IMG/VR virus record: IMGVR_UViG_3300042319_003013
Location: 1-64,000 of that record
DNA: 64,000 nt
Origin: a virus
Strand: one strand, 5' to 3'
Part shown: positions 8,854-51,221 of the stretch, piece by piece
Layout: each line of letters starts with the position of its first letter
Numbering within the stretch: position 1 is the stretch's first letter
Made by a program: the position numbers and the translations under genes
The notes under the pieces: model-generated
The model's database searches: none
Told to the model about the DNA's origin: nothing
What the model saw: the letters and a program-made list of their open reading frames with translations, nothing else

Positions 8854-8859
8854 AAAGTC

Positions 8860-8932
8860 GAGGGTTGGAACGACCCACACCTTCCGATTATGGAAGGCCC
8901 TGGCCCAGGGTAAAAGTTCCAGGGCATCAATC
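8860..8932 (+). ncRNA. Candidate small structured RNA
   Basis: Between the 8848 promoter and the next promoter there is no start codon with a ribosome binding site. Instead there are a 4-bp GGGT/ACCC hairpin, a perfect 6-bp hairpin CCTTCC-GATTAT-GGAAGG (8880-8897) and a 7-bp GCCCTGG/CCAGGGC pairing (8897-8925). This suggests a short transcript of about 70 nt. It could instead be a terminator cluster. Confidence 0.45.
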
Positions 8933-11506: not shown

Positions 11507-11922
11507 TGTCAGGCTCGTGGATTACACTCGAGCCAGACGGCGAGTTCGAGAGATACGTTCCAAGGCGTGGCCTCTGGACAGGAGACGTTCAGACGGACTC
11601 AGTTGTCGTGCGCCCAGGCGTGCGCATGATCTGGCTCGACGACGAGCTATCGAACAAGTACCCGATCAACTATCTAGCAACAGGCATCGTGTCATGGCTT
11701 GCGCAGTCGGGAGGTTGGCCAGCGCCATTGCCTGATGCGATCCGTGGACGGGTAACGTTTACACACGATGGTGTCAGTGCAGTGACAGGCATCTACGACG
11801 AGCTGTCAGAGACTGATGTAAATACAATCAGAGTGTACGCGCTCAAGGCACGCGTTGCGATCCGCAGTGAGATGAGCGGTGTCCCGCTGGGACCAAGCGG
11901 TCCGTTTCTCTCGGAGCTGTAA
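11506..11922 (+). CDS. Hypothetical protein
   Basis: 138 residues, started at ATG 11506 because it overlaps the preceding stop (coupled translation); an upstream GTG at 11479 in the same frame would sit inside that gene. Beta-rich N-terminal half, no motif recognised. Confidence 0.6.
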   Translation: MSGSWITLEPDGEFERYVPRRGLWTGDVQTDSVVVRPGVRMIWLDDELSNKYPINYLATGIVSWLAQSGGWPAPLPDAIRGRVTFTHDGVSAVTGIYDELSETDVNTIRVYALKARVAIRSEMSGVPLGPSGPFLSEL

Positions 11923-11939
11923 ACTAGAGAAAGTAAAAT
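11923..11939 (+). promoter_or_regulatory. Phage promoter (leaderless)
   Basis: ACTAGAGAAAGTAAAAT, hexamer 11934-11939, 6 nt before ATG 11946. Confidence 0.8.
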
Positions 11940-11945
11940 GATCGC

Positions 11946-12131
11946 ATGGCAACAATGAAAACAATCAGTATCCTCATCGACGAGGTCGAAGCTGGAATCA
12001 TGGACGCGATGTTCGACTACCCGGACGTCAGCCCCGATGATCTAGCTCCGGAAGTAATCCGCAACATAGTCAGGGGTGTCCCTGACAACATATCGACATA
12101 TGTCTTCAACCACTTTGGTCTTGAAAACTAA
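11946..12131 (+). CDS. Small acidic protein (leaderless)
   Basis: 61 residues, strongly acidic. A second ATG three codons in has no ribosome binding site either. Leaderless by promoter spacing. Function unknown. Confidence 0.6.
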   Translation: MATMKTISILIDEVEAGIMDAMFDYPDVSPDDLAPEVIRNIVRGVPDNISTYVFNHFGLEN

Positions 12132-14182: not shown

Positions 14183-14188
14183 GGCGAC

Positions 14189-14337
14189 ATAAGGTTTGGT
14201 TGGGTATTTACCAACCAGGAAGGTACAGGGTAATCCCTGCTAAGCAAAGCGTCCATCACGCACAAGAGCATACCGGCCATTGCGGCTGGTCCCTGCCAAG
14301 CAGGCAAGTATGAACAGCGGCCTTCCAAATTCTAATG
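14189..14337 (+). ncRNA. Candidate structured RNA, about 150 nt
   Basis: From its own promoter to the next one. Hairpins: TGGTTGG/CCAACCA (14197-14217), CAGGG-TAAT-CCCTG (14226-14239), CCTGC-CAA-GCAGG (14292-14304). GGAAGG (14218-14223) can pair with CCTTCC (14331-14336), closing the inner domain. No start codon with a ribosome binding site. Function unknown. Confidence 0.55.
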
Positions 14338-14569: not shown

Positions 14570-14575
14570 GATCTA

Positions 14576-14655
14576 CGAAGCGGTCCGGACGAAACCGCGC
14601 AACATAGAGGACCACGTGTCAAGTCGGTTGTAGCCAAAGTAACCGGGCCGCTTCT
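14576..14655 (+). ncRNA. Candidate 80-nt RNA with paired ends
   Basis: The first 12 nt GAAGCGGTCCGG (14577-14588) are complementary to the last 12, CCGGGCCGCTTC (14643-14654), with one G-U. Inside are an alternative GCGGT/ACCGC hairpin (14580-14598) and a CGGTT/AACCG hairpin. The next promoter block begins directly at the 3' arm. An ATG in the -10 region opens a 17-codon frame but lies upstream of the predicted start. Confidence 0.6.
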
Positions 14656-15347: not shown

Positions 15348-15353
15348 AGTCTC

Positions 15354-15585
15354 ATGCCTCAGAGCATTGAGGACAACATAGCAGCCGCAAGGTTGCGAAC
15401 GAATCGTCACTGAATGATAAGGCTCTGTTCAGAAGATAAGGCTCTGCGAGGTTCCCGGGACCACGTCATCCGTCCTCCTCTCACGACATCCGCCCTCCTC
15501 TTACACACGATCAGTTCGTAACACCCGACGGGGAACTCGCGGTGGGGTTCGCTACCCCAGTTATGTAGTCCTCAATGTTCTGAGG
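15354..15585 (+). ncRNA. Candidate 232-nt structured RNA with 18-bp terminal helix
   Basis: CCTCAGAGCATTGAGGAC at 15357-15374 pairs with GTCCTCAATGTTCTGAGG at 15568-15585 over 18 bp (one G-U). Inside are a 12-bp direct repeat GATAAGGCTCTG (15416-15427, 15435-15446), a 20-bp tandem repeat with CCGYCCTCCTCT (15463-15482, 15483-15502), and a GGGGT/ACCCC hairpin (15544-15558). The CCTCCT motifs resemble the anti-Shine-Dalgarno end of 16S rRNA. A leaderless 19-codon frame (15354-15413) followed by a 35-codon frame starting 15413 are possible but do not look like proteins. Confidence 0.6.
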
Positions 15586-16099: not shown

Positions 16100-16249
16100 A
16101 TGAAACCATCAACCCGAATGCACGAGGTCTACGATCTCAAATTCAAATTGATCCGATTCTGCGGATCGCGCACGGCAGCCAACGCCTTCTGGGCGAAGCA
16201 GCCAGCGCAGGCGCGGCAGGATCTGGTGGTGCGGGTCTCGGGGCGATAG
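16100..16249 (+). CDS. Small protein, paralogue of 23205
   Basis: 49 residues beginning MKPSTRMHEVYD and ending LVVRVSGR. The gene at 23205 encodes the same length with MKPSTKPHEVYD, a central GS-[RQ]-T, a QARQ segment and IVRVAGR, so the two are paralogues. Basic, one small alpha/beta unit. The stop codon lies in a perfect CGGGGC-GATA-GCCCCG hairpin (16239-16254). Function unknown. Confidence 0.65.
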   Translation: MKPSTRMHEVYDLKFKLIRFCGSRTAANAFWAKQPAQARQDLVVRVSGR

Positions 16250-16254
16250 CCCCG
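16239..16254 (+). terminator. Tetraloop hairpin over stop codon
   Basis: CGGGGC and GCCCCG around a GATA loop; a probable terminator for 16100. Confidence 0.65.
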
Positions 16255-16267
16255 GGCTCCGGCCCAA

Positions 16268-16284
16268 ACCGGAGAAAGTAAAAT
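16268..16284 (+). promoter_or_regulatory. Phage promoter with no downstream ORF
   Basis: ACCGGAGAAAGTAAAAT, hexamer 16279-16284, predicted start A16291. Confidence 0.75.
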
Positions 16285-16290
16285 GATCTC

Positions 16291-16366
16291 ACGCGGTTGG
16301 ATAACACCGCTAAAACCTCGACGCGCTGGGCGGCGTCAGAGTTATCCACCCAGCATCTGAAACTTA
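16291..16366 (+). ncRNA. Candidate small RNA with kissing loops
   Basis: Hairpin 1: GCGGT (16293-16297) and ACCGC (16306-16310) expose an 8-nt loop TGGATAAC. Hairpin 2: GCTGGG (16325-16330) and CCCAGC (16349-16354) expose a loop ending GTTATCCA (16341-16348). The loop sequences are perfect 8-nt complements, so they can form a kissing complex or pseudoknot. No start codon with a ribosome binding site before the next promoter. Confidence 0.6.
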
Positions 16367-16378
16367 GGAAAGTATAAT
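16362..16378 (+). promoter_or_regulatory. Phage promoter, -10 TATAAT
   Basis: ACTTAGGAAAGTATAAT, hexamer 16373-16378, predicted start A16385; drives 16407. Confidence 0.8.
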
Positions 16379-16406
16379 TGGGCCAACAACGACGAAAGGA
16401 ACACAC

Positions 16407-16604
16407 ATGGACATGACGGCAACAGACGCAGGCAAAGACCTCGCCGACTACATCCTACATCTCGCGAACGGCGTGGTCGACACCCGGATGGAGATCGAGG
16501 GCTACGTCGAGTCGACGGACAACTTCGACAAGGACGAGTTCATCGCGGCAGCGACGGCGCAGTTCAAGGAATCATTGGCCGAGTACTTCGAGTCGATCGG
16601 GTAA
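16407..16604 (+). CDS. Small acidic helical protein
   Basis: 65 residues after GAAAGGAACACAC; acidic, mostly helical (ADYILHLANGVVDTRMEIEGY... FKESLAEYFESIG). Function unknown. Confidence 0.6.
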   Translation: MDMTATDAGKDLADYILHLANGVVDTRMEIEGYVESTDNFDKDEFIAAATAQFKESLAEYFESIG

Positions 16605-35975: not shown

Positions 35976-38900
35976 ATGTCAAACAAGAAAAAGCGCACAC
36001 AGCTCAGTACGGCTGAACTACTTCGTCTTCGCTCAAGCATCATCACGATGCTTGATACTGCAAACAAGTCAATTCAACCAGAACGTCAGGTAACGCTCGC
36101 TTCGGCGATCGAGGTTGCAAACCGTGAGATCCGCAAGGAAGTATACGGCAGCAACTCAACACGTGCGTTCTCTGCGTTACGCGCCGTGTCTGGCTTTATC
36201 GCGCTTTCTTCAAAGAACAAGGTGTCAACCTCTTCTCTTGAAAACTCTGACCTTCTTTCGGTAGGTCACCCGCTCTCGACACGCGCGCACGCGATGACCG
36301 CGTCGGCGTTGCGCCACGCACGTGCACGTTGGATCGCGGCCGATGACCTCATCATCGACGACGACATCCGCGCACTTGTCGCGTCTGCTCACTCGTACGA
36401 ACACGGTTCATTTGAGCGCAAGCACGCGTTTGCACGTATCGCGGCATTGGGACCTGGTGTTGTCCCGATCACAGCCGCTGTTGATCTTGAACCGATCATC
36501 GCCGTACTTGGCTTTGGTCTTGGCGGTAACTCACGTGCGGCGCGTTCTGCCCGTGCACGTATGCAACGCCGTGACCGCTTTGGCCGTTTTGCGTTCATGG
36601 GTGGTGGCTGGAAATTCAACATCTTCAAGTCTGGCAAACACAGCTACGTAAGTGGAAAAGTTGTCGGCATGTCAGGTGTTGATGACATTGAAGTCGAGAT
36701 CAAAGACGATAAAAATATCCCAAACGGAGTCTACGCTGTACCAGCTAAGAAAGGTCAGTCCGCAAAGGCGATCATTAAGAAGTCGTATCTAAAGGACACC
36801 CCAGAAGTAGCTGTCTCTCGCGAAGATCAAAAGTACGCTGTCAACTTCTCGTCAATGCGAAAGCTTGACGCACCGACAGGCTGGACACCTACACAGGCAT
36901 CACAGCCTAACCACGTCGCGTTTATGAGCGCTGACGGTTACCGTGTTGAGATCCCAATAAACAAAGACGGCCAGCAAGAGATCACCGGCGCACGCAAGGC
37001 GTCAGTATTCCGTGCGGTTGGAAACCAAAAGATCGGCATGGCGGACGGTTGGGACTCTGTTGAGCTTACAGCACTTACCGACCAAGATCAGTATGAAAAG
37101 TTTCTCAACAGCAAGCAAGGTCAGAAGTTGCTCAGCCAAGGTGGCTGGGGTGTTGACGTTGTTCAAGAAGACATCGGCGAAGATAAGTTTAAGCCGGCGG
37201 GTGAGACAACAGGACCTGGCGACCGCCCTGGTCCAGTGCCTCCTGCTGTTCAGCGAATGGCTGATGAAGAAAACAAGCGCGCAGCTGAAGAAAAAGCGCA
37301 ACTTGAAAAGCCAGCATCGCAGCTTGAAAAGGCAGACGTTAAGTCTGTCAGTGTTGACTGGAAGACAGACGGAGAGCCTGTAACTCAAGAAGGTCTTGAT
37401 GCGTGGAAGCAGGAGTTTGCACCTGGTGTTGACATCAAACTTCAAGACGACGGATCTGTAAAGCTTACAGGTTCAGAGTCAAATCTTCGCAACGCGCTCG
37501 ACAAGGCGACAGACGGTGACTATAACGCAACGGACTACATCATGGACTCGGCACAGCTCGAGTCAATGGGTGTCCCGACAGATCGTGTTCTTCTTGATGT
37601 TGAAAAGATGAAGAATGCCGTTAAGGGTCTTACGTACAAACAGCTGATGGACACCGGTGTAAAAGAATACAAGATGGCGTCAAAAAATGTCGGCGCATAT
37701 TGGTTCACCGAAGACGAGGTCTATGACGCCGAAAAAGATGGATTTAGACTGACTGGAGAAGAGCGCGGCGGCGGAAAAGCGATGGTCGACATACCTAGCT
37801 ACGCCACTCCATCGGGCAATCTGGTTGACTTTGCAGGTGACACGTCAATGTCAAAGATCGGCGCAGTCATGCAAGCGTACCGTAACGGCGACGTTCTTCG
37901 ATTTAAGTATAACGGAAAAGATCGCGAGGTTCAACCAAGCGGCAATACATATACCAACAAGAAGACCGGTGAAACAAACTTCGTTGGATTTGATCATGCG
38001 ATCGGCGAAGAGCGCACGTTTACCATCTCAAAGATGGATGCTCCTTCACCTAAGAAAGAGGCGAAGAAAGAAAAGGCAAAGATCATCACGATGCCAGAGG
38101 CCGACCGCGGCAAGGCACCACAGTTTATCAAACCTGACAGCACGCCTGAAGAGGTTGTTGATCAGATGCAGAAGGCGATCGACGGTCAGTATCCTGTCAA
38201 GTTTGGCTACGGTGGAAAAGATCGTACGTTTAGACCAGAACGTATCTATACAAGTCCTAAGACAGGTAAGACAAACATCGTCGGTTTCAGTGAGACAGAC
38301 GGTGAAGGTCGCACATTTACCGCTGACAAGGTTACAGGTGTAAGCACTCCTGAAGCTCCGGCCGGATGGGACGTTAAGCGAGATGAGGTACAACCAAGCG
38401 CCGCAGAAAATGTCATTGACCTCAATCCAAAAGAAGTCAACAAGATCGCTGACATCAAGAAGTTTGTTCAAGATGCTATTGATAACGACCAAAAGCTCCA
38501 CTTCATGTATAGCGACAAGGACCGCGTTGTTACTCCAGAAGGCGTCTGGCAGAACGGACAGACAGGTCGCACGAACCTAAAGGCCAAGGACTCAGACGGC
38601 ACCAGCAAGAACTTTGCGTGGGACAAGATCGTTGCTCCTAAGCCTTCCAGTCGCACCAAGTGGCCTGAGCCCCCAGATGGTATCCCAGCAGAAGCGTGGG
38701 ATGATCTGCCGTGGGAGAACTTGCCTAACATCCCCGACGACAAAGAATTGCGACCTGACCAGATCTGGAGCGGGCCCGACGAGAATTTCAAGCTTGGACC
38801 TGACGGGGAACTGATTCCACTTGAACCACCCAAGTACGAGCCTCTGCCCGAGATTTACAAGCTTGGACCTGACGGAAAACGGATTATTGACCCGAGCCTG

Positions 38901-41900
38901 GACAAGCCGATGGCAGATGTTCCGCAAGGCACAACCGCAGAAGGCTGGGATATCCGTATCGCCGGCATGTATGGCGGAGAGGCAAACGCATGGACGCACA
39001 TTCCACCGGCAGACGAGTACGGCGAAGATCACAGCATCACCGAGGCTGTACAAAAAGATGGAAAGAGCAAGTTTGAGGTATGGCGTAAAGGCATCTGGTT
39101 AGGCGAAGGTAACAACAAGCAGATTGCAACTACCGACACACTCGCCGAGGCGGCTGAGGCAGTCAAGGCTGACATGCCAAACGCAGAGGCCATTGCGATA
39201 AAGAACGGCAAGCGTGAACCAAAAGCAACGCGTCAAGAAAAACTGCAAAGAGAGCGAGAAAAATTCCAAGAACGGCTTGATGATCCAGGTAACTGGGAAC
39301 AGAAACCTGTAGGTATTCCAACAACAAGTTATGAGTGGACCTACGTCGGTCCAACTCCAGACTTTGATGAGTATCCAGAGTTGATGCAAGATCTTCTTGC
39401 AGCGCGGGAAGAAAAAGGTCTACAGTCCGCAGAAGATAGTCGGCCAATTCCTGACTCTGATGAGCGCGCTGGCGCGCCTTCACGTCCATCTGCTGCTCCA
39501 GCAGGACCAGCAAAAATGGAGAAGACAAAGCCTGGTCAACCAACACTGTTTGCTGAACCACCAGAGATCTCACCCGAGATCCAACGTCTCGTAGACGCGG
39601 CAAACGACCTGCGTGATACACCAACTGCAAATCTTCCAGCAATCATTGAGAAGTCAATTGAAGAAAAGAAAGACGTTGCGTTTGACTTCAACGATAAGCT
39701 TCGCGTGGTTACGCCTGAAGAGATCGTCGAGAACAAGGCCGGCAAGAAGCAGCTTAAAGGTTTCAGCAAGACCGACGGCGAAGACCGCACGTTCACGATT
39801 GACAAGATGAACAAGCCTGCGGCTGACACAAACGTCAAGGTTGACGACATCGTCAACATGCCGCAGGACGAACTTGATCGTCTCGTCGACGCTGCATGGC
39901 CAACACCAACCGCAGCAACTCCTGCATATGAAGAAAAAGTATCTGAGTTTGACAGGCAGATAGCTGATCTCAACCGCAAGATCGAGACAATGAAGAACGT
40001 GCTTAACGGACCTGATAGTCCAGACGGCAAACTTCACAAGCGCGCAAAGTCAAACTTGGATCGTCTACAGCAGTCAAAGGACAAGCTTTCCTTCGACAGA
40101 ATCAACAATAACTTTGAAGAAAAACCAGCAGCAACAACTACACGTCGTCTTGCAGTTCTTCCTGAAGGTCGTAGCAACGAAGATATCATTTCAGAGTTCG
40201 AAGAAGACATCCCAGGTGGAAAAGCTCGCTTTACAGGCGATGCACAAAACGGATACCCAGTGTTTGAGTTTGATATTCCAGCAGGCGAAGAAGAACGCTT
40301 TAACGACTGGTTTGGCGAAGACAACATTGAAGACTTCCCAACAGGTGACGCGGTTGCGTTTGCTGAAAAGTACAACATTCCAATGGGAGACAACACCGAG
40401 CTTAAGAACGGTAACCCAGGAACAAGCTTTGAGGTTGACGTCGCTTTTGAAGAAGGAACACTTGATGATGTGCTCAAGGACTTCAAGGCAAAGTTTCCTG
40501 AAGGCGAAGCAGATGTTGTTGTGTCAGAAGGCGCTGGCGGCGGCTGGCCGATCGTTGACTTCTCAGTTCCAGAGGGACGTGAAGAAGACTTCGGTAAGTG
40601 GTACAACGGTGACCTCGCAGACTCAGACAACATTGCTGGAGATCTTGACGAGCCGGTAGACGAGAACCTGTTTGGCGGCGAACCAGACGCAGAAGACATG
40701 GGCACATTTAATGATGAGGCCTTTGACTCGATGTACACAACGCCTGAAGGCGCGTACAAGCCAAATATCTTTGAGTTCTATAAGCCTGAAGGTCGCACAA
40801 ACCAAGACAGCGCTGACTACACAGACGATCCTAGGGTATTGAGCGGTAAGTTCTCCGAGGATGAACTTGTTCGCGCACTCCGCGACGCTGTTCTTCCATC
40901 TGACTCAGGCCCAGCAAACGGATATGGAAACCTTCCGTTTGAAAGTGGAGATGAACCTGTCAAGGCCGAGGCTTTGTTTGAGGCACTTGAACAGACAGGT
41001 ATGGATGCTGGGTTCTTGCTCGCCGGGATCTTTGACAGCGCGTCACCTGACAAGTCTAAGAAGAATCAGTTGAACTATGTTGACACGATCAACACACCTC
41101 CTGCAGGTTCACCGAGCGCCGCGATTCCACTCAGCGATCGACTCGCTCAGACACGTGCCGCACAGGCGATCAACGGAGAACTTGGAAAACCGGAGAACGC
41201 GATAACAGCGTTCCGTCTGATCAATCAGCATAAAGAGACAAATCCAAACATCCAAGATCTTGCACAAGAACTTATCTCTCGTGGAATAAACGGTCTTGAT
41301 CTTTCGCAAGAAGGCGACGCAGATGCGCAACTTGCACGCGATCTTGATACATATCTTCCGTGGGCATTTAGTGAGAGCGCTGAAGAGCGCGAGGCGTTCC
41401 AGTCTTACTGGGGTCTTATGCTCTCAATCGATGGTGGCGACAGCGACCTCGAAGACTGGCAGCACCCTGGTTCACGTGCCATAATTCTTGACGCACTTGA
41501 ACGACTCACCGGTGGTGACGGCGGCAAGGCGATGGAGATGTACTACCAGCTCTATGAAGACTTTGGTGGCTTTAAAGATCTTGTTGACTCAAAGAAGGCG
41601 ATCGCCGACGGTGTCGACGACCTTGAGAGCGACACGCCTGCTGCCGGTCTATTTAGACTTGTCGCCGCCGCAAAGGAAGTATCAGAGATTCCGCTGTATC
41701 GTTCAATCGGCGTAAACGCAAACTCTGAGCTGTTCAAGAAATACACAACGCCTGGCTTTGTTGTTTCATTTGACCCACGTCCATTCACCGAGACAGACCT
41801 AACAACAGGCGAGATCGGTGCGGTGGGATTCTCGCCTACAAATCCAAACGACGTACGTATCGTCTTTGAGGTCGCCGCAGGTGAGATTGACTCTGTCAGT

Positions 41901-44900
41901 CTCAACGGATTCTCGTGGTATGACCAAGAACAAGAGCACCTCGGCACCGGTGAGTTTATCGTCGACAGTGTACGCGAACAGCCGGCAGTTCTTAAGCCTG
42001 GCCAAAACGAGTACATCATCACGCTTAAGCGCGCAACAGAAGACGCGCTCAAGAAGGCGTACGGTCAACCGACAGAGGCAGAGGCTCCTGAAGTGGTCGA
42101 AGCTCCAGAGGCTCCGACACAAGGAACAGCTCCTCGTGAATACGGCGATGTATCAGACTGGAAGCGTGTAGCCGGACAGGCAGGCTCAAACCAAGGTGGT
42201 GTTTACGAAGACAGCGAAGGAAATCGCTACTACGTCAAGACAGCGCGTTCGCAAGATCACGCTGATGTCGAGACACTTGGATCAGCCTTGTATCGTGAAC
42301 TTGGTATTCCTGCAACAGATGTAGGTCTTGGAACACGCGACGGTGCACTACAGATCATCAGTCCGATGATTCCAAACGCCACATCTGGAATGGATGACTA
42401 CATCAATGATCCAGAGTTCCTCGGCAAGTTGCATGAAGGCTTTGCGATTGACGCGTGGTTGTCTAACTACGACGTAATCGGCATGGTCTACGACAATGTT
42501 GTTGCAGACGGAGACGGCAATCCAATTCGCGTTGATCAAGGTGGAGTGCTTGTATGGCGCGCCCGTGGTTCACGTAAAGAATGGTTTGGCCCAGAGGTTG
42601 CTGAACTTGACTCAATGCGCGATCCTGGAATGAACCCAACCGCCTCAGATGTGTTTGGCAGTATGACAGCGGCAGACATCAAGAAGAGCGGAGAAAAGCT
42701 CCTCAACATCACGCCAAGTCGCATTGACGAGATCGTTGATTCGATCGTAAATAGTCCTAAAGAAAATGAACTTCTTAAGGACATGCTCAAGCGTCGTCGT
42801 CAGTCAATACTTGATCAGCTTGGAATTAAAGATACAACAGTTGATCCATTTGCAGAGCGCGTGCCTTTGACAGAGAGCATCGGCTACGCCGCGCAAGATC
42901 TGCAACCTGGCGACGTTGCTGAAGGCGATTCATTCGTAATTGAACGTGTGTTCCGCGATCAGATGACGCCAAAGAACAAGGTAAGCGTGCAGGGTTACTT
43001 CCCAGGTCACGAGTCACAACGTAAAGAGTGGAATGAAACAACAATCATTCCAGTTGCACGCGGTGGCACAATTCCACCTAAGGGAGATAAACCAGCACTG
43101 CACCGTCCTAAGGCGCCACGCAAACCTTCACCAGGTGCATTCACCGGAAAGATGGCTGAGCTTCTCAAGGACGCCAAGACCTGGGAAGAGGCCGCGGCGA
43201 TCATCCGCAAGACACCTATCATGTTCTTTGACTATGAATCAACAGGTTTACCAGGACCTGAAAAGGGTGGACGTAACCAGCCGGTGCAGATCGGCGGAAC
43301 GTTTGTTGCAGACGGAGAGGTACGTGCTCAATTTAGTTCATACATGAATCCAGAGCATGAGCTTTCTGACTGGTCTGCTAAGAACCTCAAGCAGATGGAC
43401 GGCTCGCCTGTAACAGACGAGTGGCTCACAACTCAGCCTTCGATGAAGGACGCGCATCAGCAATTCTTAGATTTTGTCAAAGAACATGCAGGTGACGAGG
43501 TAATTCTTGGCGGACAGTACACGCCGTTTGACCTTGAGATTCTTCAACGAGTTCTCAGCGCAAATGGTCTGTCAATCAACATTGTTGGAACAATTGACTC
43601 AAAAGATCTCGCTGAAGGCACACTTCCTAAGTGGAACTCAAAGACACAGTTTGGTGCAAGTCAGGTAAGTGAAAAAGACGGCAAGCGTCGTGCATCAAAC
43701 AGTCTTGGACCAGTTGCTGAATTCCTTGAAGTTAAGTTGCCAGACTGGCACCGCGCAGATGCAGATGCTCAGGCCTCGTGGGAAATTACTGATGCAATGC
43801 TTACGCGTGCTATCAATAATCCCGACACAACGCCGACAACACTTCTTAATGTTGACGGTGCATTTGAGGCTAAGCAGCAGGAAATCGCTGACTACGAGAA
43901 TGCGTACGCAAAGTACGAGGCAGATCTTGCAGAGTACGTCGCCGCCAAGGCGATCGCGGCTTCTTGGAACTGCGGTGGCGCTGGATTGACAGCGGCCGTT
44001 GGTCCTGCAAACGGACCTTGCTCCGTACCTTCAGTTGAACAGATGATCCGCGAGGCACAGCCGCTTCCGATCGGTGAGATCGATCCTGACGGCGTCGCCG
44101 GTGGAAGTACAAGCAATGAGTCATCGATGGTCGATGCGCAAGAGATTGACACGCCATCACAAGACGGCGTTGATACCAACGATCCATATAAGGACGAGCA
44201 ATTCAAGCCAACCGAGGAACAGCGCGCAATTCTTGATGCGATCATGGAGGGCAAGAACGTCGTTGTTCAGGCACTCGCAGGAACCGGTAAGACAGCGACA
44301 CTTCTTCTCGCAGGAAAGCGTAAGAAGAAAGAGGCTGCTCAAGAGCGCGGAGTGTATATCGCGTTCAACAAGTCAGCGCAGCTTGAAGCTGAAGAACGCT
44401 TTAGGAAGGCCGGTCTTACAAACATCGAGGTCATCACCAATGACGCGATCGCAACACGCTGGGCCCCTAAAGATATCGTAAAGAAGCTCGACAAGAACCC
44501 TGAGCTTTCATACTACAAGGATATTGACAAGTATCTCGGCATCACAGAGTTTGAAGGTCCAGGTGCCCAAGGATACGGTCTGTATGAAGCGCACAAGTTC
44601 TTTATGGAGGCGATGCGCAAGTATCTAATCAGCGCTGATCCAGAGATTGGTCCACAGCACTTTGATATCCCAGAACAAGACGTTAAGCCTTGGATGCTCG
44701 ACATCGTAAACAAGATGTGGGAAGACTACAAGGATCCAAACGGCAAGCTGCGTATGGACAACACCATCATCACAAAGATGTGGGCGTTGTCAAATCCAGA
44801 TCTTGGCGAGATTGGCTCGGGACTTAAGCAAGCCGTTGACTTCATCTTCTTTGACGAGGCGCAAGACATCAACCCTGTGTCAGGCAAGGTCATCGCAGAT

Positions 44901-47900
44901 CAGACAATCCAAAAGGTCTATGTAGGTGATGAAAACCAGGCGATCTACGCATTTCGTGGTGGAGAAAACCAACTCGGGAAAGTACTCGGAGCTGTCGAGT
45001 TCCCACTCACAAAGTCGTGGCGCTTTGGTGCAAATATCGCAAATGAAGGCAACAAGTGGCTGAGCATGCTCGAGTCACCGTACCGTGTTATCGGTGGAAA
45101 CGCAGATCCGGGCGAACTCGTTCCAGAGGAATCGCTTTATGACACAGCTGATGCAATTCTTGTGCGTACAAATAGCGGCGGACTCTCCGCGATCTTTGAT
45201 CAGCTTCAGCGCGGACGCACTGTCGGCGTGACAAAGAACTACAAGAATGATCTTGTAAATCTCACAGACTCTGCGGAATACTTGCTCAACGGAGGCACCG
45301 GCACAAAGCCTAAGCCGATGCATCCAGAACTTGCACCGTTTAGGACATGGGCGGAGGTCAAGAAAGAGGCCGAAGACGAGAACAGCAACGCAAGCAATAA
45401 GCTTAAGTTGTTTGTTGGGCTGGTTGAGACTGAAGGCATCGATGGAATCCGTGGTCTCCTTGATCAACTGCATCTTGCCAAGAGCACAGGCGCAGCACTG
45501 AAGTCAGTCGACATTGACGATACAGACGTTGGCTCTGAAGGATCACTCGGCAAGGGCGTTGACTACACGATCGACGAAAACGGAATCGGCGTCTTTGGTA
45601 ACACGTTTGAGAACAAGTCAACGATCGCAAAGAACGGTTTCAAGTGGGACAAGTCAAAGGGCCAGTGGCGTCTTGAGACAACAAACCAAGACACTATCAG
45701 CAACGTACTCAAGAAACTGAGCGTCTCACTCAACGGTGGTGTCGCGCCGGCCGAGGCTGATGCCAAGCCGATCGACGTATTTATCACAACAGTCCACCAG
45801 GCGAAGGGTCTTGAGTGGGACAAGGTTCTGATCTGGACTGACTTCTGGGGCCCTCGTGTCAATAAGGCAACTGGCGAAGTTGAGATGCCAGATCCAGTAG
45901 AGTTCAGGATTGCATACGTTGCAGTTACACGTGCTAAGAAGCAACTAGGACGCGGTGCTCTTAGCTGGATCGATAGCTTTGTCAAGCAACCAGCAGAGCC
46001 TGCACCTGTTGAAGAGCCAAATGCTCCCGAAGTGCCTGTACCTTCAACAGAAGGTGAAGGCGGCGGTGGAGTTGAAGAGCCACCAGCACCAACACCTACA
46101 CCTTCCGATGGTGGAGATGACAACGAGCGCATCATCAAGTCTGTAAAGCAGGCGGTTAAAGATGCTGACGATACTCTTGAAGACTACTCAGATCGCAGTT
46201 CAAAAGATGAGAAGAATATCAAGAAGTTCCGTCAAGCCGTTAAAGACGCGCTCTACGCCTATGAAGGTGAACAGTACGTCGACGCTGAAGAGCGATTCCG
46301 CGATGCTGCCGAGCTTCTTGAACCTTACGCAGAGGTAGGCGCTGGGGACCTCCAGAGTCTGATGCTTCAGGCGGCAGATGCCGCAGATGCGATCCGCATT
46401 AGTAAACTTACTCCTAAAGAGACACCCGCTGAGCAACCTAAGCTTGATCCAGAGTGGCGTCCAGACGATGTACCTGCACCGCTAGGTGTAGTACCTACGG
46501 GCGAACAGCAGGCACCAGATGATGTTGCTCCAGAGCAGCTCGAGACAACCAACAATAACGTTGATATGTCGCAGGTGCTCCGCTACAAGGATGACTCCGA
46601 AAAAGCAGCTGACCTGCAGAACGCATTTGATGATGTTGAGAAATCACGTGACGAAGTAACGGGCGAAGACTCGGTACTCATGGCAACTGACCGCAACAAG
46701 ATCAAGAAGGCTGCTGAAGAGGTCCGACAGATCCGCGAGGCTCTTGCAAACGGAACAATGACAGACGATCAAGCACTCGCACGACTGAACGCGATCATTG
46801 ACTCACTACCAACATATGACATCTTCAGCGAGAGATACGTTGACATGGAGTCATTCAAGGACATGGTCAAGGCAGTAAAACGTTACATTGACGGTTCGGC
46901 ATACTGGCGTCCAACAGGAGCCGCTCTCCCACCGATCGACGCTGTCGACTCTAAGGGTCGCCCAGCAGGTTACGCGAAGGACGGCACAACGTTCCTCACA
47001 CCTGGCATGCGTGTCCGTACCAAGTTTGGTTACGCAGGTATCGTCGAGGAGTATGAAAAGACCTGGGGCGGTGTCAAGGTCCGCATGGAGATTGACCCAC
47101 GTCCAACAGAGCAGAAGGGTGCCTGGGGTCCGTACGTTGCGCGTCTGGCGTACAACACACGTGAACTTACCGTCATCGGTCCTGATGAAGATCCATACGT
47201 CGAGATCACACGTGAAAAGGGAAGCGAAAAGAAGAAGCCTAAGAATCTTGAACAGCAGATGGAGATCTGGAACAAGGTGCAGGCGGGCGAGATCGATCCA
47301 AAGGCTAAGAAATCAAAAGCTCCTAAGGGTGAACCACCAGCAGAAGGAGAAGGCGGTGTAGGCGTTGAACCTCCACCTAGTCCTCCAGAAGGCGACGGCG
47401 GCTCAGCGCTCCCAAAAGCTGAAGCCCCAGAGGGGGCAACAGAGGCTCCTGACGATATACCACCACCTCCACCATGGAATCCAGAAGTTTCAGAGACCCC
47501 CGACACAACAGTCGAGACTGGTGATGAAGCACCTGCACCAGAGCAAAACGCAATTGATCCAGAGGTGATGTCAGAGATGGTTGACAGTGCCCTCTCAGAC
47601 ATGCACGCAACTCTTCATGATCAGATCCGTGGAATGTCAGCGACTCTCGTAAAGATGCCTGTCAATGAGACAATGATGTCAATCGCAAACGTCGCAGGTC
47701 GTCCGATCGTGCTCGTCAACATCAACGGCGTCAGTGTTCCGTTCTACGCAAGCACAGGTTCGGGTGGAAAGACAAGTGTACCTACAAACAAGTGGTATCC
47801 GATATTTGGAATTAGTCCTCAGACAAGTTGGTTCAATAAAGGATTTACAGAAGAGCAGATCAACAACATGTATGACTCACCTGAGCTCAAAGCTGTTGCT

Positions 47901-50900
47901 GATTTTCTAAACGCAAATCTTGCAAATCCACTGGCGATGGTACCTGATATTCCTAAGGCAGCAGGCGAGCAAGAATACCAAGATCTACTCGCTGCGATAA
48001 ACACTGACATGGACACAACCAGCGGAAGCAGCGCAAAGTCTGCAAAGATCCTCAAGCAAAATATTGAGTCAACCGTCAACGACATCAAGACACCCGTAAT
48101 CAGGACGGGCTGGGATCCAACATTATTTAGAAGCGGTGATCAGTCAACATGGCCTAGGTTTTTGCTCATGGCAGATGGGATTACATCTAGACAAGACGTT
48201 GCCGCGGCTGTTCGTCACGGTATTGAGATGATATTTGAACGCCAAGAAGACGATGTCCGTAGTCAAGAAGAGATAAATAAAAATGCCGGAGCGTATTTTG
48301 CGCTTCTCGATCAAGCCATAAAAGAAAACGCGTCAGACATGTATCTCGGCGGAGACTTTGATAATTCAAAGAAAATGAAGCAACTTGCAGAAGACTGGGA
48401 TTTTGCACGGCCTTCATTGATGAATCTTGACATGTTTATTGATCAGATGCTAAACGCCTCAACTGATCCACAGGTTAAGAAGTGGAAAGACCGCATACAA
48501 TACATGGACGCAACTGAAGAAAGTGACTATAGACTATCTCTGCGTGAAGGCGCAAGACTCGTGACAAGTGACAAGATAAAGCTGCACGGGAAATCTAATT
48601 CAGAAGTCACACCTGCAGGTAGACCTCCTGTTGTCATTAAAGATCCAAAGCCTATATCTTCATCTGGACTTACTGGCATTCCTTCTCTAATGGAGGCTGT
48701 CTCTACTGTTGTAGATCGCCCAGATCAGTACAAAGAACGCGGAGTATCAGCGGCTGTCGACAGTACAGATATTGAAGATCTTGACATCCGTGCATCAACA
48801 ATCATTACGCCAGACGGCGAGCGCAAGTTGCGCCTTCGATTCAAACTTACGTCCTGGCGCGGAGCGGAAGTTACACAAGAAATCTCATCTAATCTAGGTC
48901 AAGCTGGAAGTTTGTTTAGAGCAGAGGCGCCGCAAATTGAACGTGTAAGCGTTGCTGAAAACGGCGACATTGTTCTCTCAGGTGAAAGTGTTGTAAATAA
49001 CTGGGGCGGAGCGGTATTCAATAACGGCAGAATGTTTGTCTCAGATAGCGAAGATACAGGCAATCCGTGGTCAATAAATATCATGCGTGCAAATGACGAC
49101 AATAGTCTTGAACCACTTGACGCACAATATGAATCAGCGCCTGCAGCATTCCACAACCAGGTGATCATTGATCTTCCAATTGACGCCGAGCAGTCTGATA
49201 TCGAAGAGGCGCTCCGCGCGGCCGGTGTACGTGATGTGCGCGCCGCGCAACAGCAAGACACAAAGTCGCTTATTGAAAACAGACTGCTGTCGCTGTTCGA
49301 CTCTCAGACTGACCCAAACATCAACATTACAGACCAAGATCGTCGTGATAAGAAACTTGAAAAGATCAAAGAACGCTGGGGAGTAGAAGCAGCAGATGTG
49401 TTCCCGCGTATCGGGTCTCATGGACGCATTGAGTATATGCTTCCAGACAATGTGGCGTTTCTTATGCAAGAAGATACAGGCATAAAAGGCTTTAAGCACA
49501 ACTTAAGTCTTGAAAAAGCAGTTGCAAATCTTGTTGATACACAGAGCAGACCACCGACCCCAGAAGAACTTATACAGGTAACTACAAACGCAATTGTTGA
49601 CGTAGTAACAAACGGACTAGTTGCAACAGTTTCTCGAGTACAAGAAGGTCTCAACTATAAGGGAATGTCCTCGACTGAAGACCTATGGACAGGCGGGGCT
49701 GACTACGTGTTTCTTAGGCCGACAAAGCATGACGAAAATAGCACGCTAGAAGTCATGGGCGGATTTAACGCAAACAGTGAAGGAAGTATCTGGTGGCCAG
49801 CAACTGACATCTTTGAGCGATCAGATCTATATGCAAACATAGACGACCTGTACGGCAAGCGTGTCCCTGGAACAGATATCTTAAGGGCAGTCAAGTACGA
49901 AGGCCAGGAAGCGATGGTTAAGCACGGTGTTCCAATTACAAAGGACGCGCAGATTGTTGTGTCACAACTTGTTCGTGACCGCGCAATTAAAATGCTAAAG
50001 GAACGTGGGATTACTGAGATAGACGGAACTCCGATAGAGGAAATTATCTTGACTGCTGGATCAAAAATCTTAGAAGATAGAAGAGGAAGTAAAGACAGCG
50101 CTAAAGGACAGTTGCTGCGTTTTGCAGAAGAAAACCTCACAGAAGCATTTACAGAGGCGGGTGGAAGTGAAACTGTAGACTTTAATGACCTTGCGGCGAT
50201 GCTTACATATACGGGATCAGATCTGCACTATCAACCCGCGCCTGCAGGATCCGTGGCAGTAGCTGCAAAATATATGTTTACAGTTGACATGGGGTTAGAT
50301 CCTTTTGAAATAGAAAACACAAGACAGTTACCGCAGATCATTGTTAGGTATCCAGACGGGCACTACTACACGCACGACGCAGGCAGTGCAGGCGCCGTTT
50401 TATCTGGAGACGCGTACGTGGAGCCAATGTTGGCCAGTGACGTAAATGTATTGAGAAATAAAGTTGCTGAATACAACTCTCCGTTTGACAGGCAGGAAGA
50501 GGAAGGCAAGGTCGACTGGTTGCCGTTTTCTGGAAACCATGCTGTAACTAACGCAGGTGGATACGACACAATGCTTAGGGCGGAGATAGTTATTCCGTTT
50601 GGGCAGGAAAACGCAGGCAATCCAACCGGAGAAGACTACGCTGATATCTTAGACAGGTACAAACTTGTTGACGAGATCATTAAAAAAGTTGCAAAGATGA
50701 AGTCATTTGAAATGTACAGTGCGGCTAGAGGCATGCTTTTGCCCATGTACGCCAACACAAGGGACAGGAACCTGCAGTCATATATCATGCAACAGCTTAT
50801 AAACCTAACGCTGTACACTGGACGCACTGTGCCACCAATGCCCGTCACCTCGGCTGGTGAAGAGAAAGACACAAACATGCTTCCACTGCCTGACTACGAC

Positions 50901-51221
50901 GAGTTTGCAAAGTACGGTAACTACCTCAACCGCGCCGGCACGCAGGCCGTACTTGAAAATGTCGACGGTGAATACGCCGGCTGGCTGCGTGCAGCATACT
51001 CGGCAAAGATCATTCGTGACTTTGATGACCAAGGTCTTCCGATTAGAAGCTACATGGAGATCACGACTGACCGTGATGGTGGTCTGTCGTTCCAACTCAA
51101 GGAGAACAGTGGCTTTAAGTGGGACCCAAATAAACGAGAAATAACGTTCTCAAGTCGCGGAATTATGTATAAAATTAGGGCGATACAGCCTGATGAGAAG
51201 CTTAACAGAATTCAACTATAG
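35976..51221 (+). CDS. Giant polyvalent head-associated protein (5081 residues)
   Basis: One uninterrupted frame. N-terminus (1-210) with DLLSVGHPLST and RDRFGRF tags. WYL-like modules at about 618-690, 718-786, 821-885 and 1205-1278. Two small ferredoxin-like modules (about 1390-1455, 1490-1555). ADP-ribosyltransferase-like region (about 1905-2025, LYRSIGV ... EQEHLGTGEF). Kinase-like domain (about 2060-2260: GGVYEDSEGNRYYVK, DAWLSNYDVIG, RVDQGGVL). DEDDh exonuclease (about 2415-2610: FDYESTG, PFDLEIL, WHRADADA). UvrD-like helicase (about 2744-3340: AGTGKT, FFDEAQD, VHQAKGLEWDKV, YVAVTRAK). The remaining 1700 residues have Pro/Glu linkers and unassigned domains. Likely packaged in the head and ejected with the DNA. 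Confidence 0.8.
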   Translation: MSNKKKRTQLSTAELLRLRSSIITMLDTANKSIQPERQVTLASAIEVANREIRKEVYGSNSTRAFSALRAVSGFIALSSKNKVSTSSLENSDLLSVGHPLSTRAHAMTASALRHARARWIAADDLIIDDDIRALVASAHSYEHGSFERKHAFARIAALGPGVVPITAAVDLEPIIAVLGFGLGGNSRAARSARARMQRRDRFGRFAFMGGGWKFNIFKSGKHSYVSGKVVGMSGVDDIEVEIKDDKNIPNGVYAVPAKKGQSAKAIIKKSYLKDTPEVAVSREDQKYAVNFSSMRKLDAPTGWTPTQASQPNHVAFMSADGYRVEIPINKDGQQEITGARKASVFRAVGNQKIGMADGWDSVELTALTDQDQYEKFLNSKQGQKLLSQGGWGVDVVQEDIGEDKFKPAGETTGPGDRPGPVPPAVQRMADEENKRAAEEKAQLEKPASQLEKADVKSVSVDWKTDGEPVTQEGLDAWKQEFAPGVDIKLQDDGSVKLTGSESNLRNALDKATDGDYNATDYIMDSAQLESMGVPTDRVLLDVEKMKNAVKGLTYKQLMDTGVKEYKMASKNVGAYWFTEDEVYDAEKDGFRLTGEERGGGKAMVDIPSYATPSGNLVDFAGDTSMSKIGAVMQAYRNGDVLRFKYNGKDREVQPSGNTYTNKKTGETNFVGFDHAIGEERTFTISKMDAPSPKKEAKKEKAKIITMPEADRGKAPQFIKPDSTPEEVVDQMQKAIDGQYPVKFGYGGKDRTFRPERIYTSPKTGKTNIVGFSETDGEGRTFTADKVTGVSTPEAPAGWDVKRDEVQPSAAENVIDLNPKEVNKIADIKKFVQDAIDNDQKLHFMYSDKDRVVTPEGVWQNGQTGRTNLKAKDSDGTSKNFAWDKIVAPKPSSRTKWPEPPDGIPAEAWDDLPWENLPNIPDDKELRPDQIWSGPDENFKLGPDGELIPLEPPKYEPLPEIYKLGPDGKRIIDPSLDKPMADVPQGTTAEGWDIRIAGMYGGEANAWTHIPPADEYGEDHSITEAVQKDGKSKFEVWRKGIWLGEGNNKQIATTDTLAEAAEAVKADMPNAEAIAIKNGKREPKATRQEKLQREREKFQERLDDPGNWEQKPVGIPTTSYEWTYVGPTPDFDEYPELMQDLLAAREEKGLQSAEDSRPIPDSDERAGAPSRPSAAPAGPAKMEKTKPGQPTLFAEPPEISPEIQRLVDAANDLRDTPTANLPAIIEKSIEEKKDVAFDFNDKLRVVTPEEIVENKAGKKQLKGFSKTDGEDRTFTIDKMNKPAADTNVKVDDIVNMPQDELDRLVDAAWPTPTAATPAYEEKVSEFDRQIADLNRKIETMKNVLNGPDSPDGKLHKRAKSNLDRLQQSKDKLSFDRINNNFEEKPAATTTRRLAVLPEGRSNEDIISEFEEDIPGGKARFTGDAQNGYPVFEFDIPAGEEERFNDWFGEDNIEDFPTGDAVAFAEKYNIPMGDNTELKNGNPGTSFEVDVAFEEGTLDDVLKDFKAKFPEGEADVVVSEGAGGGWPIVDFSVPEGREEDFGKWYNGDLADSDNIAGDLDEPVDENLFGGEPDAEDMGTFNDEAFDSMYTTPEGAYKPNIFEFYKPEGRTNQDSADYTDDPRVLSGKFSEDELVRALRDAVLPSDSGPANGYGNLPFESGDEPVKAEALFEALEQTGMDAGFLLAGIFDSASPDKSKKNQLNYVDTINTPPAGSPSAAIPLSDRLAQTRAAQAINGELGKPENAITAFRLINQHKETNPNIQDLAQELISRGINGLDLSQEGDADAQLARDLDTYLPWAFSESAEEREAFQSYWGLMLSIDGGDSDLEDWQHPGSRAIILDALERLTGGDGGKAMEMYYQLYEDFGGFKDLVDSKKAIADGVDDLESDTPAAGLFRLVAAAKEVSEIPLYRSIGVNANSELFKKYTTPGFVVSFDPRPFTETDLTTGEIGAVGFSPTNPNDVRIVFEVAAGEIDSVSLNGFSWYDQEQEHLGTGEFIVDSVREQPAVLKPGQNEYIITLKRATEDALKKAYGQPTEAEAPEVVEAPEAPTQGTAPREYGDVSDWKRVAGQAGSNQGGVYEDSEGNRYYVKTARSQDHADVETLGSALYRELGIPATDVGLGTRDGALQIISPMIPNATSGMDDYINDPEFLGKLHEGFAIDAWLSNYDVIGMVYDNVVADGDGNPIRVDQGGVLVWRARGSRKEWFGPEVAELDSMRDPGMNPTASDVFGSMTAADIKKSGEKLLNITPSRIDEIVDSIVNSPKENELLKDMLKRRRQSILDQLGIKDTTVDPFAERVPLTESIGYAAQDLQPGDVAEGDSFVIERVFRDQMTPKNKVSVQGYFPGHESQRKEWNETTIIPVARGGTIPPKGDKPALHRPKAPRKPSPGAFTGKMAELLKDAKTWEEAAAIIRKTPIMFFDYESTGLPGPEKGGRNQPVQIGGTFVADGEVRAQFSSYMNPEHELSDWSAKNLKQMDGSPVTDEWLTTQPSMKDAHQQFLDFVKEHAGDEVILGGQYTPFDLEILQRVLSANGLSINIVGTIDSKDLAEGTLPKWNSKTQFGASQVSEKDGKRRASNSLGPVAEFLEVKLPDWHRADADAQASWEITDAMLTRAINNPDTTPTTLLNVDGAFEAKQQEIADYENAYAKYEADLAEYVAAKAIAASWNCGGAGLTAAVGPANGPCSVPSVEQMIREAQPLPIGEIDPDGVAGGSTSNESSMVDAQEIDTPSQDGVDTNDPYKDEQFKPTEEQRAILDAIMEGKNVVVQALAGTGKTATLLLAGKRKKKEAAQERGVYIAFNKSAQLEAEERFRKAGLTNIEVITNDAIATRWAPKDIVKKLDKNPELSYYKDIDKYLGITEFEGPGAQGYGLYEAHKFFMEAMRKYLISADPEIGPQHFDIPEQDVKPWMLDIVNKMWEDYKDPNGKLRMDNTIITKMWALSNPDLGEIGSGLKQAVDFIFFDEAQDINPVSGKVIADQTIQKVYVGDENQAIYAFRGGENQLGKVLGAVEFPLTKSWRFGANIANEGNKWLSMLESPYRVIGGNADPGELVPEESLYDTADAILVRTNSGGLSAIFDQLQRGRTVGVTKNYKNDLVNLTDSAEYLLNGGTGTKPKPMHPELAPFRTWAEVKKEAEDENSNASNKLKLFVGLVETEGIDGIRGLLDQLHLAKSTGAALKSVDIDDTDVGSEGSLGKGVDYTIDENGIGVFGNTFENKSTIAKNGFKWDKSKGQWRLETTNQDTISNVLKKLSVSLNGGVAPAEADAKPIDVFITTVHQAKGLEWDKVLIWTDFWGPRVNKATGEVEMPDPVEFRIAYVAVTRAKKQLGRGALSWIDSFVKQPAEPAPVEEPNAPEVPVPSTEGEGGGGVEEPPAPTPTPSDGGDDNERIIKSVKQAVKDADDTLEDYSDRSSKDEKNIKKFRQAVKDALYAYEGEQYVDAEERFRDAAELLEPYAEVGAGDLQSLMLQAADAADAIRISKLTPKETPAEQPKLDPEWRPDDVPAPLGVVPTGEQQAPDDVAPEQLETTNNNVDMSQVLRYKDDSEKAADLQNAFDDVEKSRDEVTGEDSVLMATDRNKIKKAAEEVRQIREALANGTMTDDQALARLNAIIDSLPTYDIFSERYVDMESFKDMVKAVKRYIDGSAYWRPTGAALPPIDAVDSKGRPAGYAKDGTTFLTPGMRVRTKFGYAGIVEEYEKTWGGVKVRMEIDPRPTEQKGAWGPYVARLAYNTRELTVIGPDEDPYVEITREKGSEKKKPKNLEQQMEIWNKVQAGEIDPKAKKSKAPKGEPPAEGEGGVGVEPPPSPPEGDGGSALPKAEAPEGATEAPDDIPPPPPWNPEVSETPDTTVETGDEAPAPEQNAIDPEVMSEMVDSALSDMHATLHDQIRGMSATLVKMPVNETMMSIANVAGRPIVLVNINGVSVPFYASTGSGGKTSVPTNKWYPIFGISPQTSWFNKGFTEEQINNMYDSPELKAVADFLNANLANPLAMVPDIPKAAGEQEYQDLLAAINTDMDTTSGSSAKSAKILKQNIESTVNDIKTPVIRTGWDPTLFRSGDQSTWPRFLLMADGITSRQDVAAAVRHGIEMIFERQEDDVRSQEEINKNAGAYFALLDQAIKENASDMYLGGDFDNSKKMKQLAEDWDFARPSLMNLDMFIDQMLNASTDPQVKKWKDRIQYMDATEESDYRLSLREGARLVTSDKIKLHGKSNSEVTPAGRPPVVIKDPKPISSSGLTGIPSLMEAVSTVVDRPDQYKERGVSAAVDSTDIEDLDIRASTIITPDGERKLRLRFKLTSWRGAEVTQEISSNLGQAGSLFRAEAPQIERVSVAENGDIVLSGESVVNNWGGAVFNNGRMFVSDSEDTGNPWSINIMRANDDNSLEPLDAQYESAPAAFHNQVIIDLPIDAEQSDIEEALRAAGVRDVRAAQQQDTKSLIENRLLSLFDSQTDPNINITDQDRRDKKLEKIKERWGVEAADVFPRIGSHGRIEYMLPDNVAFLMQEDTGIKGFKHNLSLEKAVANLVDTQSRPPTPEELIQVTTNAIVDVVTNGLVATVSRVQEGLNYKGMSSTEDLWTGGADYVFLRPTKHDENSTLEVMGGFNANSEGSIWWPATDIFERSDLYANIDDLYGKRVPGTDILRAVKYEGQEAMVKHGVPITKDAQIVVSQLVRDRAIKMLKERGITEIDGTPIEEIILTAGSKILEDRRGSKDSAKGQLLRFAEENLTEAFTEAGGSETVDFNDLAAMLTYTGSDLHYQPAPAGSVAVAAKYMFTVDMGLDPFEIENTRQLPQIIVRYPDGHYYTHDAGSAGAVLSGDAYVEPMLASDVNVLRNKVAEYNSPFDRQEEEGKVDWLPFSGNHAVTNAGGYDTMLRAEIVIPFGQENAGNPTGEDYADILDRYKLVDEIIKKVAKMKSFEMYSAARGMLLPMYANTRDRNLQSYIMQQLINLTLYTGRTVPPMPVTSAGEEKDTNMLPLPDYDEFAKYGNYLNRAGTQAVLENVDGEYAGWLRAAYSAKIIRDFDDQGLPIRSYMEITTDRDGGLSFQLKENSGFKWDPNKREITFSSRGIMYKIRAIQPDEKLNRIQL

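Follow-up and report, generated by a model that had tools for sequence, protein, structure and literature searches.

A kissing-loop-capable non-coding RNA with three covarying helices in uncultured aquatic actinophages

The window, by which we mean the whole 64,000-nt stretch of DNA analysed here, belongs to a linear virus contig of 64,461 bases. It carries a promoter set of 53 near-identical sites, compared with 1.3 expected, with the consensus GAA(A/C)GTA(A/T)AAT. Approximately 50 copies lie upstream of very small genes, and most of these promoter-driven small genes use the leader ACGACGAAAGGAC as their ribosome-binding site. The structural gene region contains one open frame that runs for 5,081 codons (35976–51221), which is unusually long for a 64-kb contig. 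Nearly all promoter units have a ribosome-binding site, whereas a few promoter-to-promoter units have neither such a site nor a long frame, and the unit at 16274–16368 is among the latter. Its −10 region (GAAAGTAAAAT, 16274–16284, plus strand) is one of the approximately 50 phage-wide copies, in agreement with the initial annotation, which had placed a small RNA without an open reading frame directly behind a dedicated promoter. On the other side, the unit is bounded by the promoter (16368–16378, plus strand) of the next gene, which encodes a 65-aa ORF (16407–16604). Judging from the promoter position, transcription is expected to start at approximately 16290–16291.

The absence of an ORF was also borne out. 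An ATG at 16283 starts a 25-codon frame that overlaps the −10 box, lacks a ribosome-binding site and is lost in the homologues described below. A coding reading was rejected: among lineages, the frames are interrupted by stops and by a 1-nt indel, substitutions fall at first and second codon positions, and no conserved reading frame was found across the homologues. No terminator was detected behind the RNA and before the next gene, so the RNA may be merely the 5′ part of a longer transcript.

The core of the RNA (16293–16354, 62 bases, plus strand) consists of two hairpins separated by a linker. Hairpin P1 (16293–16310) pairs GCGGU (16293–16297) with ACCGC (16306–16310) around an 8-nt loop, UGGAUAAC (DNA TGGATAAC; 16298–16305), which provides the 5′ strand of the loop–loop helix K. 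The linker (UAAAACCUCGACGC, 16311–16324) leads to hairpin P2 (16325–16354), in which GCUGGG (16325–16330) pairs with CCCAGC (16349–16354). Loop 2 has 18 nt in total, comprising a 5′ part, CGGCGUCAGA (DNA CGGCGTCAGA; 16331–16340), and a 3′ part, GUUAUCCA (DNA GTTATCCA; 16341–16348). These last 8 nt provide the 3′ strand of K and lie flush against the 3′ arm of P2. By direct reading, loop 1 and 16341–16348 are exact reverse complements (8/8), confirming the 8-nt loop complementarity described in the initial annotation. Two hairpins of at least 5 bp with at least 8 complementary loop nucleotides occurred in 4 of 20,000 dinucleotide shuffles of 76 bases. When only 6 nt are required, such motifs arise commonly by chance within 64 kb, and the case therefore rests on the 8-nt match together with conservation.

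Five distinct sequences that retain P1, P2 and K were found on 16 virus contigs (the window and 15 others, counted by contig name). One belongs to a sister phage group with a 75% identical VWA-domain protein, in which the RNA (78% identity) lies between two promoters. The third lineage came from a profile search and the fourth and fifth from a pattern scan; a covariance model of the first three sequences detected these last two with E-values of 1e-17 and 1e-14. Searching approximately 75 related phage records with the model returned the known lineages alone, and no match was found in GenBank phages by megablast and blastn, or in bacterial and archaeal genomes searched with the conserved core. 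Rfam 15 gave 0 matches in the 64-kb window at the gathering score and nothing credible at permissive thresholds, and there was no tRNA or tmRNA. Rfam contains the pistol ribozyme, and its covariance model gave no match at 16200–16450, either at the gathering score or among the matches up to E = 10. The nearest named relative is Actinomycetia phage DSL-LC01 (terminase 86%), which showed no copy of the RNA in the 26 kb examined. This phage was assembled from a lake (PMC10611076). From these searches, the RNA appears to be confined to one branch of aquatic actinophages. No prior description of it was found in the open-licence literature. By these comparisons it is a new RNA family, although compact phage RNAs with kissing loops are, in principle, a known kind.

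The initial annotation had regarded a kissing-loop fold as possible and had named covarying homologues as a way of checking it. The five distinct sequences support this fold, with covariation in all three helices and double substitutions in 7 of the 19 pairs over P1, P2 and K. In the alignment (A3), P1 is represented by GCGGU/ACCGC, GCAGU/ACUGC, GUGGC/GCCGC, ACGGU/GCCGU and GCGGU/ACCGC, and P2 by GCUGGG/CCCAGC, ACUGGG/CCCAGU, GCUGAG/CUCAGC, GCUGGG/CUCAGC and GCUGAG/CUCAGC. K occurs as UGGAUAAC/GUUAUCCA in two lineages, as CGAGUAAC/GUUACUCA in two (with a first pair of C-A) and as UGAGUAAC/GUUACUCA in one; it has 8 bp, or 7 bp in the two lineages where one terminal pair is C-A. Double substitutions affect 3 of 5 pairs in P1 and 2 of 6 in P2, with 100% of cells paired in each, and 2 of 8 in K, with 95% of cells paired. 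Thus, two hairpins and a loop–loop helix, as in an intramolecular kissing loop, each have covariation (3, 2 and 2 pairs). Overall, 97.9% of cells pair, a value equalled by 0 of 500 shuffles, and slid-partner controls gave 0 double changes. Three positions in P1 and P2 show G-U wobbles, which indicate that the plus strand is transcribed, since the other strand would have mismatches. The intervening segments are also constrained: the linker has 13–14 nt in all lineages, with ACCUC and CGC invariant, and the 5′ segment of loop 2 has exactly 10 nt, with CGG and GUC invariant. At the level of sequence comparison, these patterns demonstrate that selection on the plus-strand RNA preserves each of P1, P2 and K, and we have little doubt that this is a real RNA capable of kissing.

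A separate promoter copy precedes the RNA in the window and the sister phage. In three other lineages (L125, L218 and L223), P1 begins close behind a stop codon and the complementarity is kept without a clear promoter copy; only a TCTAAT overlapping the stop codon is present, at a comparable distance. The gene ahead of the RNA in these three lineages is conserved, encodes approximately 70–83 aa and ends ...PLEF or ...PVEF, and it was absent from the window and sister sequences examined. As contrary evidence, the initial annotation had named homologous loci that keep the promoter and lose the loop complementarity. Such loci were sought and not found, and the reverse was seen in the three lineages above. 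Indeed, no homologue with lost complementarity was recovered, even by a search independent of the loops, and pattern scans able to catch non-complementary homologues returned unrelated sequence and the known lineages alone.

The five lineages have five different downstream genes and unrelated upstream contexts, and a conserved downstream gene family, as for a riboswitch or leader, was not seen among them. These variable neighbours indicate that the RNA does not serve a single gene family as its leader and that it has moved as a unit from one context to another. From this mobility, and the separate promoter in two lineages, we infer action in trans, and a trans-acting small RNA seems to us more likely than a riboswitch. 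Its context also makes a regulatory role likely.

The main rival, which we take seriously while considering it a good deal less probable, is a cis-acting stability or processing element, in which a compact knot blocks exonucleases or marks a cleavage site and so shields the RNA behind it. The RNA is located suitably for this. In the window and sister it occupies the 5′ end of the transcript, with P1 in the window starting only a few nt from the expected +1, and in L125, L218 and L223 it opens the 3′ UTR, near the stop codon. The missing terminator before the next gene is consistent with such an element, as are the other structured RNAs that come next in L125 and L218. However, a simple roadblock does not need invariant unpaired ACCUC, CGC, CGG and GUC, and most promoter units of the same phage manage without one.

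Energy folding bears on a second alternative. The nested minimum-energy fold of the window RNA (−21.6 kcal/mol, z = −1.05) differs from the kissing fold because such programs cannot draw kissing loops. A competing stem in this fold, GACGC/GCGTC, was rejected, with two of its five pairs broken in most lineages and no covariation. RNAalifold, which cannot draw K, recovered P1 and P2 unaided. In the window, the sister and L218, K belongs to the nested minimum as a nested helix, which could suggest a two-state switch with nested K and P1+P2 as alternatives, interconverted via ligand, protein or co-transcriptional refolding. The pair counts would accommodate a switch, as they establish that all three helices matter and do not prove that they coexist. 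Nevertheless, the zero-nt K/P1 and K/P2 junctions, the constant linker (13–14 nt) and the constant loop segment (10 nt) favour coexistence, and in L125 and L223 the nested minimum already contains P1 and P2. Before any kissing penalty is counted, the rough sum of P1, P2 and K improves on the nested minimum by approximately 8 kcal/mol. With neither a conserved downstream gene nor an expression platform, we consider a switch quite improbable.

Pairing of the loops between two molecules, giving dimers or multimers, seems more improbable still. The two loops are complementary over 7–8 bp in every lineage and head-to-tail pairing is possible in principle, but neither loop is self-complementary, the linker can span the stacked helices and intramolecular pairing should win at low concentration. 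Finally, we give almost no credence to a DNA-level site, a gene remnant or an inverted repeat arisen by chance. Loose motif versions are frequent by chance, and an internal frame (NLDALGG) resembles protein motifs of unrelated genes, but these points are outweighed by compensatory changes in three interlocking helices and by wobbles on one strand; the frame, moreover, contains stops in most lineages and has changed at first and second codon positions. Sequence evidence can hardly go further in refuting this reading.

On balance, we favour, with some reservation, a stand-alone non-coding phage RNA in which the three helices form together and which acts in trans. P1, P2 and K would coexist, with K stacked between P1 and P2 without a spare junction nucleotide, and the stacked helices would make a stiff rod of approximately 19 bp that the 13–14-nt linker spans. 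The RNA would be made along with the many small genes of the same promoter. The kissing fold would display the linker (ACCUC, CGC) and the 10-nt segment of loop 2 (CGG, GUC) to a partner. ACCUC is the core of the anti-Shine-Dalgarno sequence, and because of this our first guess at a partner would be a host RNA or one of the RNA-binding proteins that take part in translation or decay. The linker, with its invariant ACCUC and CGC, is the best candidate surface, and we propose it only tentatively as the active site. The leaders of the phage itself use AAAGGA. When the linker and loop 2 were searched for duplexes with the translation starts in three of these phages, no target scored above shuffled controls, which makes a host target or a protein more likely if the linker site is used.

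The window contains at least four further promoter-driven structured RNAs. A promoter-driven RNA without an ORF lies at 8854–8925; 62 nt of it are invariant in three phage lineages with differing promoters, and a fourth lineage (L144:12109–12174) has a compensatory P1 change. Its layout, P1 / loop TGGAAC / GTTCCA / P2, is that of the kissing-loop RNA. The structured RNA at 15348–15580 spans 230 nt behind a promoter, has a fold of −86 kcal/mol, and contains GATAAGGCTCTG and ATCCG(T/C)CCTCCTCT, each in tandem; copies in relatives (L011:11720 and 8848; L144:12221 and 6443) make it a separate family, and it has no Rfam match. Promoter units without a ribosome-binding site at 14183–14330 and 14570–14652 are both conserved in the sister phage, and the former has tandem CCCTGC(T/C)AAGCA and a strong predicted structure. 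In the third lineage, the promoter units at L124:9646–9850 and 11894–12043 have no clear gene and are possible RNAs.

Within about 300 nt of kissing-loop homologues, hairpins at L125:2832, L218:4114 and L119:5485 have differing stems and an identical 10-nt loop, UCUUCGUCGU, which complements the leader ACGACGAAG common to dozens of these phages' genes. A similar hairpin at L144:11479 has the loop ACUUUCGUCGC, and no hairpin with a loop of the UCUUCGUCGU type was found in the window. These hairpins are a possible global antisense regulator, going by the loop complementarity. In L125, 3′ of the kissing-loop homologue (approximately 2875–2905), another hairpin carries an anti-Shine-Dalgarno sequence in its loop, with ACCTCCA between GCTCGCAAGG and CCTTGCGGGC. 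A broader reading, which we regard as doubtful, is that these actinobacterial viruses carry at least five unrelated promoter-driven structured RNAs and that several of them, the kissing-loop RNA included, use rigid scaffolds to expose letters that match the anti-Shine-Dalgarno or are complementary to a leader, and in this way reset translation in the course of infection. These letters would be ACCUC here, CCUCC repeats in a neighbour and the anti-leader loop in the relatives.

To our knowledge, phage regulatory RNA is little explored beyond E. coli phages. The RNA would add a new family with an unusually tight intramolecular kissing loop, covariation support and five distinct sequences known, in uncultured aquatic actinophages that keep dozens of tiny genes under one promoter and one leader. 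It may serve as a clean small model for kissing-loop folding and, with the neighbouring RNAs, suggests that such phages spend several promoters on regulatory RNA.

Kissing of ColE1 RNAI and RNAII is intermolecular and involves two different RNAs, and the topology of RydC also differs from that of the kissing-loop RNA. In common with RNAI/RNAII, every base of a small hairpin loop pairs in the kissing helix; in the present RNA, however, the two loops belong to a single chain, and the partner segment sits inside a larger, 18-nt loop. The pistol ribozyme (PMC4604425) is also similar, with a 5′ hairpin P1, loop pairing downstream near a second helix P2, a similar size and a frequent location near phage genes. 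However, pistol has a P3 and a cleavage site, and its pseudoknot partner separates the 5′ strand of P2 from that of P3 (PMC4604425). Here, the 3′ strand of K adjoins the 3′ arm of P2, and no P3 occurs in any of the five lineages. RydC (PMC4337610) resembles our RNA as a compact pseudoknotted sRNA with an unpaired segment as a possible seed, but acts with Hfq, while no Hfq site, U-tail or target is shown for the kissing-loop RNA. A parallel to the proposed trans-acting role with a host partner is offered by the phage-encoded anti-sRNAs of enterohaemorrhagic E. coli, which are small RNAs thought to act on host RNA (PMC4104026).
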